Assembly: GCA_030445745.1 (NCBI GenBank)
Contig: JASUTE010000014.1
Coordinates: 1 to 42,582, forward strand
Direction of reading: 5' to 3'
DNA length: 42,582 nucleotides
DNA from: Candidatus Cloacimonadota bacterium
Lineage (GTDB): Bacteria > Cloacimonadota > Cloacimonadia > Cloacimonadales > TCS61
In this document: piece after piece, positions 1 through 8,318 of the stretch
Position numbering within the stretch: position 1 is the first letter of the stretch
Layout: each line of letters opens with the position of its first letter
Notes under the pieces: generated by a model
Told to the model about the DNA's origin: nothing
What the model saw: the letters and a program-made list of their open reading frames with translations, nothing else
Databases searched by the model: none
Translations under genes and position numbers: made by a program

Positions 1-135
1 GGTCTTTGAACAAACCATTTATACCGTTTTTTCAAGAAATTAATGAGTTCTGCAAAATTGGTAAAAAACAGAGTAAAAATTTTAAATATCGGGATTAAAA
101 TAAACCTTAATATAGACTGACGTAGATAAAATTTA

Positions 136-507
136 TTGGTTTCCCAGCAGAGCAAATCCGAGAATATTCTCGATAGCTTTCAGCGAGTATTGCTTTGGAT
201 TTTCCCAGCCAAGATGATTTTAGTGATTATAAATTATTTATTATTAATAAGTTATGAAATATTAAAAAGGGTTCTAATAATAATTTCATTGGAGGTTAAT
301 AATGATTACGAAAAAAGGCTGTTAAGCACTCTTGTATTTGCTATTTTTTTAACAGACAGTACAATAATATTTTATCAGGTAGGCCGTTGGGCAGCAATAG
401 GTGTAGCCTTAGAAGTTTTTGCGTTTTACTTATTGATTAAATTAGAAATTGAATCATCTGCTGATAATGAAACCAGTGATAGTGAGGAGGATAATGATAA
501 AGACTGA
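136..507 (+). CDS. small hypothetical membrane protein
   Basis: The 123-residue product is not recognised. It has hydrophobic stretches at about residues 18-50 and 62-103, consistent with two to four membrane segments, and ends in a highly acidic tail of about 17 residues rich in Asp and Glu that probably lies in solution. The frame is closed by a stop at 127-129, so it opens at a TTG at 136. No convincing ribosome binding site precedes that codon. An internal ATG at 211 is the alternative start and would remove the first 25 residues. A large gene-poor stretch follows. It could be a real orphan gene or a decayed remnant. The only support is an open frame with membrane-like composition. Confidence 0.35.
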   Translation: MVSQQSKSENILDSFQRVLLWIFPAKMILVIINYLLLISYEILKRVLIIISLEVNNDYEKRLLSTLVFAIFLTDSTIIFYQVGRWAAIGVALEVFAFYLLIKLEIESSADNETSDSEEDNDKD

Positions 508-1043
508 TCATAACATATTTTCTTCAGTTATTACACTTTACCTCATAAAACAGACTTAAATGTGATATTTGAATCCTTGAAATTCTCATTATTCATATAG
601 TTCATCCGAAAGATATGAAGTAGATGAGGAATTAATTTATAATCCAATCTAAATATAATAAATCAATCACCTTGAAATATGCTGAAATTAAATCAGTGAT
701 GGTGGTGTATAATAAAAGCCTCGTCGCTTTTAGCTGTGTGGTGGTTCTTGCCTGTATCTTTCGGGGCAGGGTTGGACTGTTTTTTACGACTGAATCCTTC
801 TAATTCCGCCGCACAGGCTAAGTAGGGTATGCTCGAAGCCAGGTGCATAACATTCACGTGACGTGTCGCGAGGCGCAAGGGTCACGGTCCCGGATCTTCA
901 GGTTCTTCTTGTGTTTTTCCAAGTTTTATCACAGGAAGTGAACTCTTATTTTTCCTTTCAATATGTCTGTTGTCATGCCTCACCTGCTGAGAAACTGCTA
1001 GAGCGAAGCAACGCGGCTTTTTGCGGCCGGGTTGACGCGGTTT
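508..1043. other. gene-poor gap entering a GC-rich island
   Basis: No convincing gene is seen. Up to about 690 the sequence is AT-rich like its surroundings. From about 700 it becomes clearly GC-richer, the same composition as wrbA next door. The minus strand carries an open frame of 61 codons (693-878) whose peptide ends in four histidines. It has no clear ribosome binding site and I do not recognise it. The composition boundary near 690-700 is the probable left edge of a transferred segment. No flanking repeat or transposase marks that edge. Confidence 0.5.
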
Positions 1044-1646
1044 TTAGGCCGATTGCTTCTTAGCCACTTCTGCAACGTGGGCTCCTTGAAAACGGGCAAT
1101 TTTCATTTCATTCTCAGATGGCTGGCGACTACCATCGCTGCCGGCAAGAGTACTTGCTCCATAGGGTGTTCCGCCGGTGATTTCACTCATATTCGCGAGT
1201 CCCTGGCAGGAATAGGGAACACCCACGATGATCATGCCATGATGCAGCAAGGTGGTGTGAAACGATGTGATAGTAGTTTCCTGCCCGCCGTGCTGTGTAC
1301 CCGTGGATGTGAATACGCTACCCACCTTGCCAATCAGCTTTCCGCCAGCCCACAGTCCTCCGGTCTGATCCAGGAAGTTGCGCATCTGCGCGCACATATT
1401 GCCAAAGCGTGTAGGGGTGCCAAATATAATGGCATCGTAATCTGCCAGTTCGCTTGTTGTTGCAAACGGCGCTGCTTGGTCGATTTTGGCGCCCGCCTTT
1501 CGAGCCACATCTTCTGACATTAAATCGGGCACACGTTTGATGGTGACTTCGGTGCCTTTGACCCTACGTGCGCCTTCAGCCACCTCTTTAGCTAAGGTTT
1601 CGACATGACCATACATACTGTAGTAAAGAATAAGAACTTTTGTCAT
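1044..1646 (-). CDS. wrbA: NAD(P)H:quinone oxidoreductase, WrbA type
   Basis: This 200-residue cytoplasmic flavodoxin-like protein is predicted to bind FMN and reduce quinones by two electrons, which protects against redox cycling. The FMN phosphate loop (YSMYGHVE) is at about residues 9-16. The family signature [10 protein letters not shown] lies in the middle, followed by FLDQTGGLW, and the C-terminal half has GGTPYGAS and DGSRQP, all typical of WrbA. Length is normal for the family. An AGGAG ribosome binding site lies 7 bases before the ATG at 1646. The gene stands alone on the minus strand. Its codons are much richer in G and C than the neighbouring genes, and the protein looks proteobacterial. 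I infer horizontal transfer, or less likely an assembly chimera. Confidence 0.93.
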
Positions 1647-2368
1647 ATTGCATCTCCTGTTTTTAGTGATCGTGCCGTAAGCTTATCTTAGTGACATCCC
1701 ACCAACAGGCGTGGTAACATCCTTATACACAAGCCTCATAACACTCTAACTTCTTTTTCATTTATTCTTCTTAAATTATTTTTAGATACAAAATTAATTG
1801 AATAGGTGTCAAGTATAAAAAAATAATTTTGCCAAAAACAAGTGTAATGAGTCCGCTTGATGTTTAATTCTTGCAAATTGGTATAACAAACAGCTCCACC
1901 CTAAGCAGGAAGAGCCCGCCAGAGGCAGATAAGTTTTGAAGAATTTTTCCACGTTTCCAGTTTTTTTAGCGTCAGTATAATTCTAACGAAAACGCAACTC
2001 TTCTCTATTTTCAGCTAACGATTCCGCAAATCTAAATATAAGTATAGCAAATTTTCATTTTTTCTTGACTAAAAATAATTATTTGTAAAATTCCCGGTTA
2101 ATCGAATCGCTTTTAAAAAAGTGATTAAATTTTATAGAAAATTCCAACGTTTGGAAAAGCAGAAAAATAACAGCGAAAATATAAAAATAAAGTAGAAAAT
2201 TTATAAATAAGTGAATTGAAAAAGCAAAAGTAACTTCCATCTGGAGTTGTTTGTTTTAAGGTTTGATGCAGCTAATAGGCGTAGAAGCAGTCGGGTTGGT
2301 TAGTTTGGGTTGCAAAATTAAATGACAGGTGATATATTGAGGTTTAAATAAAATAAAGGAGGATTATC
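1647..2368. other. 722-base gap between wrbA and VOC gene
   Basis: No gene is seen. The first 90 or so bases share the higher G+C of wrbA and must contain its promoter. From about 1740 the sequence returns to very AT-rich DNA, giving the probable right edge of the foreign segment. A short GC-richer patch sits at about 1890-1930. A TTGACT hexamer occurs near 2073, but no good -10 box is spaced correctly from it. The last 20 bases hold the ribosome binding site of the downstream gene. Confidence 0.5.
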
Positions 2369-2749
2369 ATGAGAATAGGTTTTAGCACGATAAAAGTAAA
2401 GGATTTAGTGGAATCAGTAAATTTTTATACAGATATTTTAGATTTAGAAGAGGTAAAGAATTTTAGTCCCCAAGATGGTGTCAACATTACATTTTTGCAG
2501 GATAAAGAAAAAAATATGATCGAATTAATAGAAGATGAAAAAATCACTGACTTATTTAATAAAAACGATTCTTTAGTATCGATAGGAGTAGAGGTAGAGA
2601 ACTTAGATAATACTATTGAGATGCTTAAAGAGAAAAGTATTAAGATTTTTAAAGGTCCTATTCAAGTACCAAGTGGAGAACGATTTGTGTTTATTAAAGA
2701 TCCGAATGGAGTAGAAATTGAATTTATTGAAGGATTTAATATACAATGA
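2369..2749 (+). CDS. glyoxalase/bleomycin-resistance (VOC) fold protein
   Basis: The 126-residue product has the paired beta-alpha-beta-beta-beta layout of the vicinal oxygen chelate superfamily. The first module begins with a strand and the SVNFYTDIL helix at about residues 16-24. The second begins near residue 70 and closes with FIKDPNGVEIEFIE at about 108-121, the classic VOC ending. The usual first metal ligand, a His in strand 1, is Ser or Thr here, so metal binding may be altered. The substrate cannot be told. A strong AGGAGG ribosome binding site precedes the ATG. The gene is isolated, with more than 300 bases on each side. Confidence 0.85.
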   Translation: MRIGFSTIKVKDLVESVNFYTDILDLEEVKNFSPQDGVNITFLQDKEKNMIELIEDEKITDLFNKNDSLVSIGVEVENLDNTIEMLKEKSIKIFKGPIQVPSGERFVFIKDPNGVEIEFIEGFNIQ

Positions 2750-3071
2750 TATTTACCACAGGTCGTTTAACCGTTTATTTGCACTTAAAAGTTTGCGCTT
2801 TTAGCCCTTCGGGACATAGTCTTTATTCGGAATTTGCAGGTTGAGGTAGCTTAATTTATTCAGAGTAGTCTTGGGACAAACACTGCGCCAATCCTGGTTT
2901 ATATAAAGGATGCTATCAAAATTTATAATAAAAAAGAATCATAATTACCAAAAACTATCGAATTCCACAAGAGACGTTAAATGTAGCGTAAAATATAAAT
3001 GTATTTGTAAACTATTTTAGGACTGAACAAAATGATTTCTGTTGAAAATTATTATTGCATAAAGGAATAAC
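2750..3071. other. 322-base intergenic gap before the cation transporter
   Basis: No gene or classical terminator is seen. Weak inverted repeats occur near 2787-2802 (AAAAG/CTTTT) and 2808-2818 (CCC/GGG), with no T-tract. The sequence just before 3072 carries a weak AAGGA ribosome binding site for the transporter. Confidence 0.4.
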
Positions 3072-3947
3072 ATGGATAAAAATAGAGCAGGATATACAGA
3101 AGGATTTGTTTCGATTCTGGTAAATACAGGTTTATTTGGATTAAAACTATGGGCTGGTATAGTTTCAAGTTCAATTGCCTTAACAGCTGATGCTTGGCAT
3201 AGTTTATCTGATTCATTTAGTTCGATAATCGTAATATTTGGAGTAAAACTATCGTCAAAAAAGCCGGATAAAGAACACCCGTTCGGTCATGGACGCTGGG
3301 AACAAATTGCAGCCATTTTTATTAGTTTTCTGTTAGCATTAATTGCTTATGATTTCCTAAAGGATTCAATACTACAATTTAATACCAAGAAGACTGCTAA
3401 TTTTGGAATTCTAGCTATTGTAGTTACTATTATTTCTATTTTGGTAAAAGAAGGATTGGCACAGTATGCTTTTTACATAGGTAAAAAAACAGGGAACCTT
3501 TCTGTAAAAGCAGACGGCTGGCATCACAGAACCGATGCTCTATCTTCTGTAATAGTACTAATCGGTATATTCTTTTCAGACCGTTTTTGGTGGATTGATA
3601 GCGTATTGGGCATAATAATAGCTTTCATGCTTTTTTATGCAGCTTATGAAATAATTAAAGATGCAATCAGTAAAATATTGGGAGAAGAACCAAGCAAAGA
3701 ATTGATTGAGAAAATTGAAACTCTTATTGAATCAAATTTTGATGGAAACGTATATCCACATCATTATCATATTCATAACTATATCAATAATCAGGAGCTT
3801 ACTTTTCACATAAAGGTGGACAACAAGATGGATGTTTTATCTGCTCATGCTATAGCAACTAATATAGAAGATATGATTAAAAAAGAATTGTATATTATTG
3901 CAACTGTCCATATCGAACCGAAAGGGGTTAGACATGATAATGATTGA
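3072..3947 (+). CDS. cation diffusion facilitator transporter
   Basis: This 291-residue inner-membrane exporter of divalent metals (Zn, Mn, Fe or Cd; specificity not determinable) belongs to the CDF family. Six hydrophobic helices lie within residues 10-200. The two metal-site motifs are visible: HSLSD in helix 2 (His43, Asp47) and HHRTD in helix 5 (His151, Asp155). HPFGHGRWE follows helix 2 at about 69-77, as expected. A cytoplasmic ferredoxin-like domain occupies about 205-285, with a His-rich stretch (YPHHYHIH, 228-235) and the family ending VHIEP. Length is normal. The gene is alone; downstream lies a structured intergenic element and a terminator. Confidence 0.93.
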   Translation: MDKNRAGYTEGFVSILVNTGLFGLKLWAGIVSSSIALTADAWHSLSDSFSSIIVIFGVKLSSKKPDKEHPFGHGRWEQIAAIFISFLLALIAYDFLKDSILQFNTKKTANFGILAIVVTIISILVKEGLAQYAFYIGKKTGNLSVKADGWHHRTDALSSVIVLIGIFFSDRFWWIDSVLGIIIAFMLFYAAYEIIKDAISKILGEEPSKELIEKIETLIESNFDGNVYPHHYHIHNYINNQELTFHIKVDNKMDVLSAHAIATNIEDMIKKELYIIATVHIEPKGVRHDND

Positions 3948-3988
3948 AATACAGCAAATAATCTATATTTATGTGCTAGAATAATAAA

Positions 3989-4022
3989 GCCCAGTGGCTA
4001 ACATTGTATATACAAAATGGGC
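3989..4022. repeat. nested palindrome downstream of the CDF gene
   Basis: A perfect 12-base palindrome, TTGTATATACAA, lies at 4004-4015. It is enclosed by the arms GCCCA (3989-3993) and TGGGC (4018-4022). The flanking GCTAAC motif is reminiscent of cassette recombination sites, but no matching partner site or integrase is present. It could equally be an operator or a hairpin at the end of the CDF transcript. Confidence 0.4.
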
Positions 4023-4041
4023 GGAATAGTAATAAATTCAA

Positions 4042-4141
4042 GGGGTTGTAGCCCGCTTCAACTTTCCTGTAACTTGACAGGAATCTACCACGCAATCGGC
4101 TACTACTTCACAGGTGTGGAATTTGGCAACAAACTAACCCC
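4042..4141 (+). ncRNA. candidate structured RNA or recombination-site-like element
   Basis: Within 100 bases, several complementary arms nest around each other. GGGGTT (4042-4047) pairs with AACCCC (4136-4141). GTAGCC (4048-4053) pairs with GGCTAC (4098-4103). An inner perfect 7-base hairpin joins TTCCTGT (4064-4070) and ACAGGAA (4077-4083). A further imperfect hairpin lies near 4106-4121. This gives a multi-branched fold followed 55 bases later by a strong terminator. It does not match any riboswitch or small RNA I recognise. It could be an untranslated RNA, the 3' end of the CDF transcript, or a folded recombination site. No coding frame crosses it convincingly. Confidence 0.35.
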
Positions 4142-4196
4142 GCACCTAAAGAATTCTACCCGACCTACTAGCAAATAACAACCAGATAGATAATAC

Positions 4197-4225
4197 CCCC
4201 GGGCTTTTGAGCTCGGGGTTTTTTT
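4197..4225 (+). terminator. rho-independent terminator
   Basis: CCCCGGGC (4197-4204) pairs with GCTCGGGG (4211-4218), with one G-T wobble, across a six-base loop, and is followed directly by seven T residues (4219-4225). It ends whatever transcript crosses the structured element and separates it from the lipoprotein gene. Confidence 0.85.
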
Positions 4226-4432
4226 ATTGGGAAAATTTTGCATAGAATTACTTGCAAATATTCTTGAGATATTTTCCTGAAATATAAATTATTTTTTATT
4301 TGACAAATGTTAATTGATTTTAGAAGCTCGAGTTGCTTGTAGAAATTGGGAAGATTTGTGTGGGAAATAATAATTTAAATCTAAATGAATACGGTTCAGT
4401 TTACAGAACCATTTATATATGTAGGAGAAAAA

Positions 4433-7590: not shown

Positions 7591-8217
7591 ATGAAACGCA
7601 TAGTTTTAGTGCTGATCTTAGTATTATTTACCGTAATTCTAGCAGCCAGAGCAAAAACAGAATATGGATTTAAGTTTGGCGCAACTTATTCCAACCAGAA
7701 TTTTAACTACAAAACGGTGAATTTTGATTTGGATACAGAATATAAACTTGGTCTAGATTTAGCTATTTTCACTGAATTTAAAGTAGAAGAGAACCTGAGC
7801 CTTCTAACAGAACTACACTATTACCAAAAAGGTATGAAAGTAGAAATATTAACATTAGATCCAAACTATGGTAACAGTTATACAACAACAGAAGAAAATC
7901 GGGTTGATTATCTATCCCTTCCTGTTTTGGGAAAGTTCAATATAACCAAAAGATGGATTCCTACATATTTTTTGGTAGGGTTTCAAGCAGATTGCTTAAT
8001 TGGTTATGATTCTAACTATTTTGAAATACTTTACGAAGATTTTGATAGAGTTGATATTAGTTTTGTTACCGGTTTGGGATGTGAGTATTATATTCCAAAT
8101 TTTCATACTATCTTATTAGAGTTAAGGTATAACCCCACTCTTAACAGATCTTATTGCACAAGTTCTTTATCTGTCAGGAATACCTCATTTTCTATATTAA
8201 CCGGTATAAAGTTCTAA
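7591..8217 (+). CDS. outer-membrane beta-barrel protein (PorT-like fold)
   Basis: The 208-residue product has a signal peptide of about 21 residues and then about eight amphipathic strands. These include the family-like pattern GFKFGATYSN after the signal, a LTELHYYQKG strand, YLSLPVLGKF near the middle, FVTGLGCEYY, and a C-terminal strand ending GIKF. This is the layout of the outer-membrane barrel domain common in Bacteroidetes and relatives. A strong AGGAGG ribosome binding site precedes the ATG. It lies 32 bases after another barrel-like gene, so the two are probably co-transcribed. No substrate can be inferred. Confidence 0.78.
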   Translation: MKRIVLVLILVLFTVILAARAKTEYGFKFGATYSNQNFNYKTVNFDLDTEYKLGLDLAIFTEFKVEENLSLLTELHYYQKGMKVEILTLDPNYGNSYTTTEENRVDYLSLPVLGKFNITKRWIPTYFLVGFQADCLIGYDSNYFEILYEDFDRVDISFVTGLGCEYYIPNFHTILLELRYNPTLNRSYCTSSLSVRNTSFSILTGIKF

Positions 8218-8318
8218 TTTATTAGGTTTATTTTCGTAGGAAAGCTAGCTGGTCTAATGAGATCAAAATAATGTTAGCATAAAAAATACAGCTAAATTCC
8301 CAATATTAATCGTTTTCA

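Follow-up and report, generated by a model that had tools for sequence, protein, structure and literature searches.

The window, by which we mean the whole 42,582-nucleotide stretch of a Candidatus Cloacimonadota contig analysed here, carries at positions 3995 to about 4106 what we read from its sequence as a degenerate attC-like cassette site, one of a family apparently recombined by a tyrosine recombinase without I2 and decayed in this genome; we put the probability of this reading at roughly four in five. Judged by its sequence organization, the family would work like an integron, and by strict features neither its sites nor its enzyme belong to described families: the sites are not strict members because they lack unpartnered extrahelical bases and rarely have full R boxes, and the enzyme is not because it lacks I2 and falls below the curated cut-off.

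Anatomy of the window element

The element lies between a cation-efflux gene and a terminator, with the following features, all on the plus strand:

3072..3947, +, CDF (Cation_efflux) gene, an ORF of 291 aa, presumed cargo of the former cassette (Pfam Cation_efflux, 161.6 bits)
3992..4002, +, R''-side end CAGTGGCTAAC, with AAC at 4000-4002, read from the sequence; the same 11-mer stands before AAC in the site on contig C36 of the same genome
3995..4123, +, attC-like site with degenerate right end (covariance models R1 and R2)
4006..4024, +, left outer arm GTATATACAAAATGGGCGG, whose partner arm is unrecognisable
4048..4103, +, conserved core, inner stem GTAGCC/GGCTAC and hairpin TTCCTGT/ACAGGAA (homologue alignment)
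4097..4105, +, right-arm start CGGCTACTA, where homology to relatives ends
4197..4225, +, intrinsic terminator, separate from the site: a stem of 9 pairs (4197-4218), then seven T

The initial annotation had described a branched, highly structured element at 4042-4225 in a gap without a gene. Its three pairs of arms are present (GGGGTT 4042-4047 with AACCCC 4136-4141, GTAGCC 4048-4053 with GGCTAC 4098-4103, TTCCTGT 4064-4070 with ACAGGAA 4077-4083), as are its rho-independent terminator and the gap, which holds no ORF of at least 60 aa between 3948 and 4332. The fold is stable (z -3.53 for 4030-4230 and -4.04 for 4030-4150, with none of 200 dinucleotide shuffles as stable in either test), and the minimum-energy RNA fold omits GGGGTT/AACCCC, a pair that forms under DNA parameters. 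The element itself is real, but its proposed interval started too late and took in a terminator that is a separate feature. The conserved part starts at about 3992-3995, and homology within the family extends to near 4106; in a DNA search of 40 relatives, the matches in seven genomes other than the window's own all lie inside 3986-4105, short of the terminator, and a 36-nt terminator resembling it stands elsewhere in the same genome, on contig C37.

The window copy scores 104.3 bits in a covariance-model search with R1, whose training sequences include the window itself; R2, built without the window, finds it at 3995-4120 with 73.5 bits (E 6.4e-19). Its left arm and core are sound and its AAC is present. 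The right arm and GTT expected of an attC site are missing: homology stops, and no GTT follows the right-arm start before 4218, inside the terminator. By eye, about 4159-4184 could pass for a degenerate right arm; an equal or better score, however, is seen in 4064 of 5000 shuffles, and we do not claim a right arm near 4160, because it is indistinguishable from chance.

A family of hairpin sites in Bacteroidota and related phyla

Searching DNA of the 40 relatives with the window element matched 8 genomes, its own included, and read on one strand these homologues are imperfect inverted repeats, about 125 nt long, that have AAC and GTT at their ends. R1, the covariance model built from these first homologues with a structure that we set from the locus L004, found sites in 18 of the 40 relatives (again with the window genome), up to 6 per genome and some close together on one contig. 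In the species collection, 98 stretches contain an exact 24-base piece of the right arm; judged by their titles, they come mostly from Bacteroidota and also from Cloacimonadota, Chlorobiota, KSB1, Calditrichia, Neomarinimicrobiota and a few others, and the element is found on eight plasmid records (Persicobacter, Riemerella, Myroides). The relatives G002, G012 and G022, which belong to the window's family, have loci identical to named Cloacimonadota contigs, and this assigns the window to the same phylum. On 80 of these 98 loci R1 gave 146 matches, or 140 sites after opposite-strand readings of the same place were dropped; the more sensitive R2, run on 86 loci, adds sites, and an arm finder returned 14 sites against 2 in reversed controls. 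These sequences show that a site begins with xxxxxxAAC, continues as an imperfect hairpin of about 130 (up to about 200) nt, and runs up to the next GTT; the cassettes that such sites close usually contain a gene.

The arms of the family keep pairing. Compensatory changes, the check proposed at the outset, are present in the homologues, in outer arms that the initial annotation had not named: 28 of 31 outer-arm pairs have changes on both sides, with 485 cells against 170 in shuffles, counts that lean towards the R1 structure because the alignment (A5) was fitted to it, and that include a few opposite-strand readings of the same sites. Sliding the partner columns by one to three destroys the signal. 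At a stage when the outer arms had not yet been anchored, RNAalifold predicted 8 pairs for the first 8 homologues, with a covariation term that was unfavourable. At two places in the stem the left arm has A and the right arm C, in 130 and 135 of the 140 sites, and these fixed mismatches (T·G on the opposite strand) distinguish the strands and probably mark which of them is used.

Sites delimit gene cassettes

How are the sites arranged? With R1, all 33 multi-site loci keep their sites on one strand, at spacings of 476 to 4,123 bases; with R2, strand counts made by eye show a single exception, L092, with three sites on each strand. Most sites (111 of 140) stand no more than 400 nt downstream of the stop codon of an ORF that is on the same strand and at least 100 aa long, the median distance being 9 nt, and at 6 of the 140 such an ORF stands on the other strand instead.

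The ends of the units between sites match. In a Lutibacter array (L204), every cassette opens with GTTxxxxxx, and the first bases of its own site are the reverse complement of that start; what stands behind a site's GTT is part of the next cassette. Across all arrays, 53 of 69 neighbour pairs agree at 6-7 of 7 bases (42 of 57 without L204), after 20 of 165 sites had been dropped for lacking AAC or GTT or lying at an end; one L204 pair (6596) scored low because the wrong AAC was taken, and was kept as counted. The baseline is 2.23 of 7 within one site and 2.17 for random pairs, 1.3% of which agree at 6 or more positions. Chance-level R-box pairing within a site is what one would expect where the next cassette supplies the bases that follow GTT, and ends that match across the unit are expected of integron cassettes, not of a scattered hairpin.

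Two units are shared between genomes, with different neighbours. L114 and L156 have a cassette of 1,505 bp in common at 86% identity, from GTTACCAAC to the GTT behind the site, and L161 and L162 share 1,288 bp at 97%; this second stretch starts with the GTT of GTTAGGCTT and stops a few bases short of the closing G. That G has no TT after it in L161, as if the cassette had been placed somewhere other than at another site. Both cases come from the 45 longest of 4,086 alignments, most of which are overlaps of the same records; the diverged alignments among these 45 (about 66-77% identity) show no break at GTT.

This organization bears on two other accounts of the element. A MITE- or REP-like hairpin that scatters by inserting behind genes would explain an inverted repeat found in many genomes and also on plasmids of Persicobacter, Riemerella and Myroides, but it would leave the two ends of a gene unit lying between neighbouring copies unmatched, and it would not move units together with their gene; we regard it as very improbable. 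We give just as little credence to a structured RNA, whether the small RNA or the regulated 3' end of a transporter transcript that had been suggested. The stable fold and the terminator would suit it, but the window element has no Rfam match at the gathering score, and the sites repeat between unrelated genes, with matching cassette ends and shared units that break at GTT. Against the small RNA, the relatives of the element are repeated, mostly one-strand sites that delimit cassettes behind unrelated genes. From the transporter proposal it stands that site and terminator follow a cation-efflux gene, but at other loci the sites stand behind different genes, and no site lies near any of 11 CDF-family genes of relatives. 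The third suggestion, a folded recombination site, agrees with what we find for the family to which the window element belongs.

Beyond the window, the recombinase of Candidatus Cloacimonas sp. SDB is followed first by a cassette (L067, 1065-2827) that encodes a SMODS-domain protein and a second protein without a Pfam match, possibly a defence pair.

A recombinase without I2 heads the arrays

We read the cassette system as served by a tyrosine recombinase that stands beside the arrays, as the integrase does in an integron platform. In the tyrosine-recombinase stretches of 9 named site-rich genomes, sites follow the recombinase on its strand in 8:

Lutibacter, 13 sites behind the recombinase
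Aureibaculum, 4 sites
Maribacter, 2 sites
Draconibacterium, 2 sites
Aequorivita, 2 sites
Cyclobacterium, 1 site (recombinase frame split)
Psychroflexus, 1 site (cut by the contig end)
Flavivirga, 1 site (weak, E 0.002)

The Prolixibacteraceae stretch has no site. Among six recombinase stretches of Cloacimonadota relatives, sites (two) occur only at L067, and the stretches L021-L025 have none. A motif search of the 80 loci found 5 recombinases, of which three lie upstream of sites on the sites' strand and one is divergent; the fifth, on the other strand, is of another type. For attI, the regions read by eye yielded no common motif. Tandem pairs of I2-less recombinase genes lie on single contigs of relatives, at G006:C75, G006:C89, G012:C140, G013:C172 and G021:C341.

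A recombinase profile of 14 rows, a canonical IntI among them, has VchIntIA (2a3v) as its best solved relative. The positions Arg, Lys, HxLRH, GH and Tyr, which we take to be the catalytic residues, are conserved, and many of the recombinases carry an extra N-terminal domain. Compared with the canonical IntI L019 of the relative G006, all 13 aligned recombinases are about 41 residues short, spread over three alignment gaps; the gap is also seen against 2a3v, and the missing region is where the I2 helix lies. Beside that canonical IntI, a small minus-strand ORF (L019, 129-476) looks by eye like the N-terminal domain of the I2-less recombinases. With the profile A7, the family scores up to 472.9 bits, against about 170-215 for other tyrosine recombinases.

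In the Lutibacter family, sites (1e-6 or better) occur in 102 of 120 genomes and the recombinase (1e-65 or better) in 86, with both in 83, sites only in 19, the recombinase only in 3 and neither in 15 (counts read by hand from the two tallies; Fisher p 1.8e-7, uncorrected for the kinship of genomes). The recombinase threshold was chosen after its two-humped distribution had been seen, and at 1e-40 the match extends to 119 of 120 genomes; site counts are low because at most 28 candidates per genome were scored. Among the 150 sites listed, 39 have a listed recombinase no farther than 50 kb away, and these lie downstream on its strand in 34 cases and are divergent in 5; 99 are on contigs without a listed recombinase, and 12 lie beyond 50 kb in mixed orientation.

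Could these sites be served by a canonical, I2-bearing IntI, either of the same cell or of donors, with the I2-less recombinase as a bystander? The sites do resemble attC in ends, spacer and size, 19 of the 102 site-bearing genomes have no I2-less family member at the threshold used, and G006, one of the 40 relatives, combines an IntI over the cut-off (442.7 bits) with one family site. We nonetheless consider this unlikely: in G006 the IntI lies on a contig of 5,928 bases that is free of sites, the proteins of 11 site-rich named genomes all stay below the IntI (TIGR02249) cut-off, and it is the I2-less recombinase that heads the arrays, on the arrays' strand.

With the I2-less recombinase as the enzyme, the cycle would run as follows. 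One strand of the site would fold, the A·C positions pointing out which strand is used, and a tyrosine recombinase related to IntI, without the insertion that bears I2, would cut beside GTT, so that cassettes could be excised, inserted and shuffled. In the window genome, the right end of the site would then have been lost and the recombinase reduced to C-terminal fragments.

Relation to described integrons and Xer recombinases

The likeness to attC sites (59-base elements, VCR) is extensive: position behind the cassette gene, AAC...GTT ends, a spacer, a variable tip, strand-distinguishing irregularities in the stem, matching cassette ends and one-strand arrays. The R-box consensus of attC is RYYYAAC and GTTRRRY. 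AAC and GTT were found in 120 of the 140 sites of our family, and unlike in attC the full boxes are rare, in 13 and 12 of these 120. In attC there is an unpaired spacer, a variable tip and extrahelical bases, that is, single bases of the R''-L'' arm without a partner, whose loss weakens strand choice while attC x attI recombination still occurs (PMC2727003). The family described here has its two A·C mismatches instead of unpartnered extrahelical bases.

IntI (TIGR02249; VchIntIA) is the best solved relative of the enzyme and has the same conserved residues. The family differs in lacking the residues of the I2 region, in often having an extra N-terminal domain, and in its score, the L067 recombinase reaching 217 bits against a cut-off of 265. 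Its gene usually lies on the array's strand, whereas a divergent intI is usual in integrons. XerA-like recombinases (NF040815, which NCBI names 'site-specific tyrosine recombinase/integron integrase') likewise have a catalytic core without the IntI insertion, and here the L067 protein passes the cut-off (236.6 against 220); unlike them, the family recombinase heads cassette arrays and reaches the high A7 scores given above.

According to PMC7790495, I2 docks the extrahelical bases and is seen as the key innovation, the step that enabled single-strand recombination, and its authors name a 'lack of intermediates' in the origin of integrons; our system would bear on that origin. Site and enzyme lack both halves of this lock between I2 and extrahelical bases, so that the system would be either a descendant of a state before I2 or an independent route to single-strand capture. 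We lean, with some reserve, towards a second kind of integron in the FCB bacteria, of one or the other origin, with A·C-marked hairpin sites and an I2-less integrase, present in most sampled genomes of the Lutibacter family.

If this is true, cassette capture is common in Bacteroidetes. The phylum is listed among integron carriers (PMC8618304, PMC2426708), and the IntegronFinder 2.0 survey reports for it only In0 in the first round and, later, a single complete integron, that of Salinibacter ruber, with further complete integrons in Chlorobi and Ignavibacteriae (PMC9024848). IntI is identified by its specific domain (PMC9668308), and a cassette-capture system may have escaped detection for that reason. 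Among the titles and abstract openings listed in a literature search, with preprints and most subscription journals outside its scope, none describes I2-less arrays in Bacteroidota and relatives; an earlier description may exist. The sites would also open a pool of mobile accessory genes, such as that for the SMODS-domain protein of L067.

State of the system in the window genome

Besides the window site, its genome has two weaker ones, of 35.1 and 25 bits, and remnants of a recombinase:

L212 (G000:C36), 3137-3264, the better second site, 12 nt behind an MgtE-type transporter gene, with the end CAGTGGCTAAC in common with the window copy
L201 (G000:C24), about 477-692 and 8038-8301, reverse strand, two C-terminal recombinase fragments about 7.6 kb apart, each in a similar stretch of some hundred bases

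In one fragment HxLRH has become HxLSH. Apart from these fragments, the recombinase profile matches only three proteins of this genome: two score 174-178 bits, as other tyrosine recombinases do, and the third is weak, at 48 bits. The lost right end, a complement of one good and two weak sites, and a recombinase left as C-terminal fragments lead us to regard the window site as a probable dead scar: the cation-efflux gene in front of it would have been acquired, and the terminator after it would be an ordinary one. No matching cassette start was found upstream of this gene in 1-4000. The genome holds a second, divergent CDF copy on contig C15, 51% identical, which by sequence fits an acquisition of the window gene and is no proof of it. 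Further upstream, at 1044-1646 on the minus strand of the window, lies an ORF with 51% G+C in a contig of 37%, which we take to be WrbA/flavodoxin-like.
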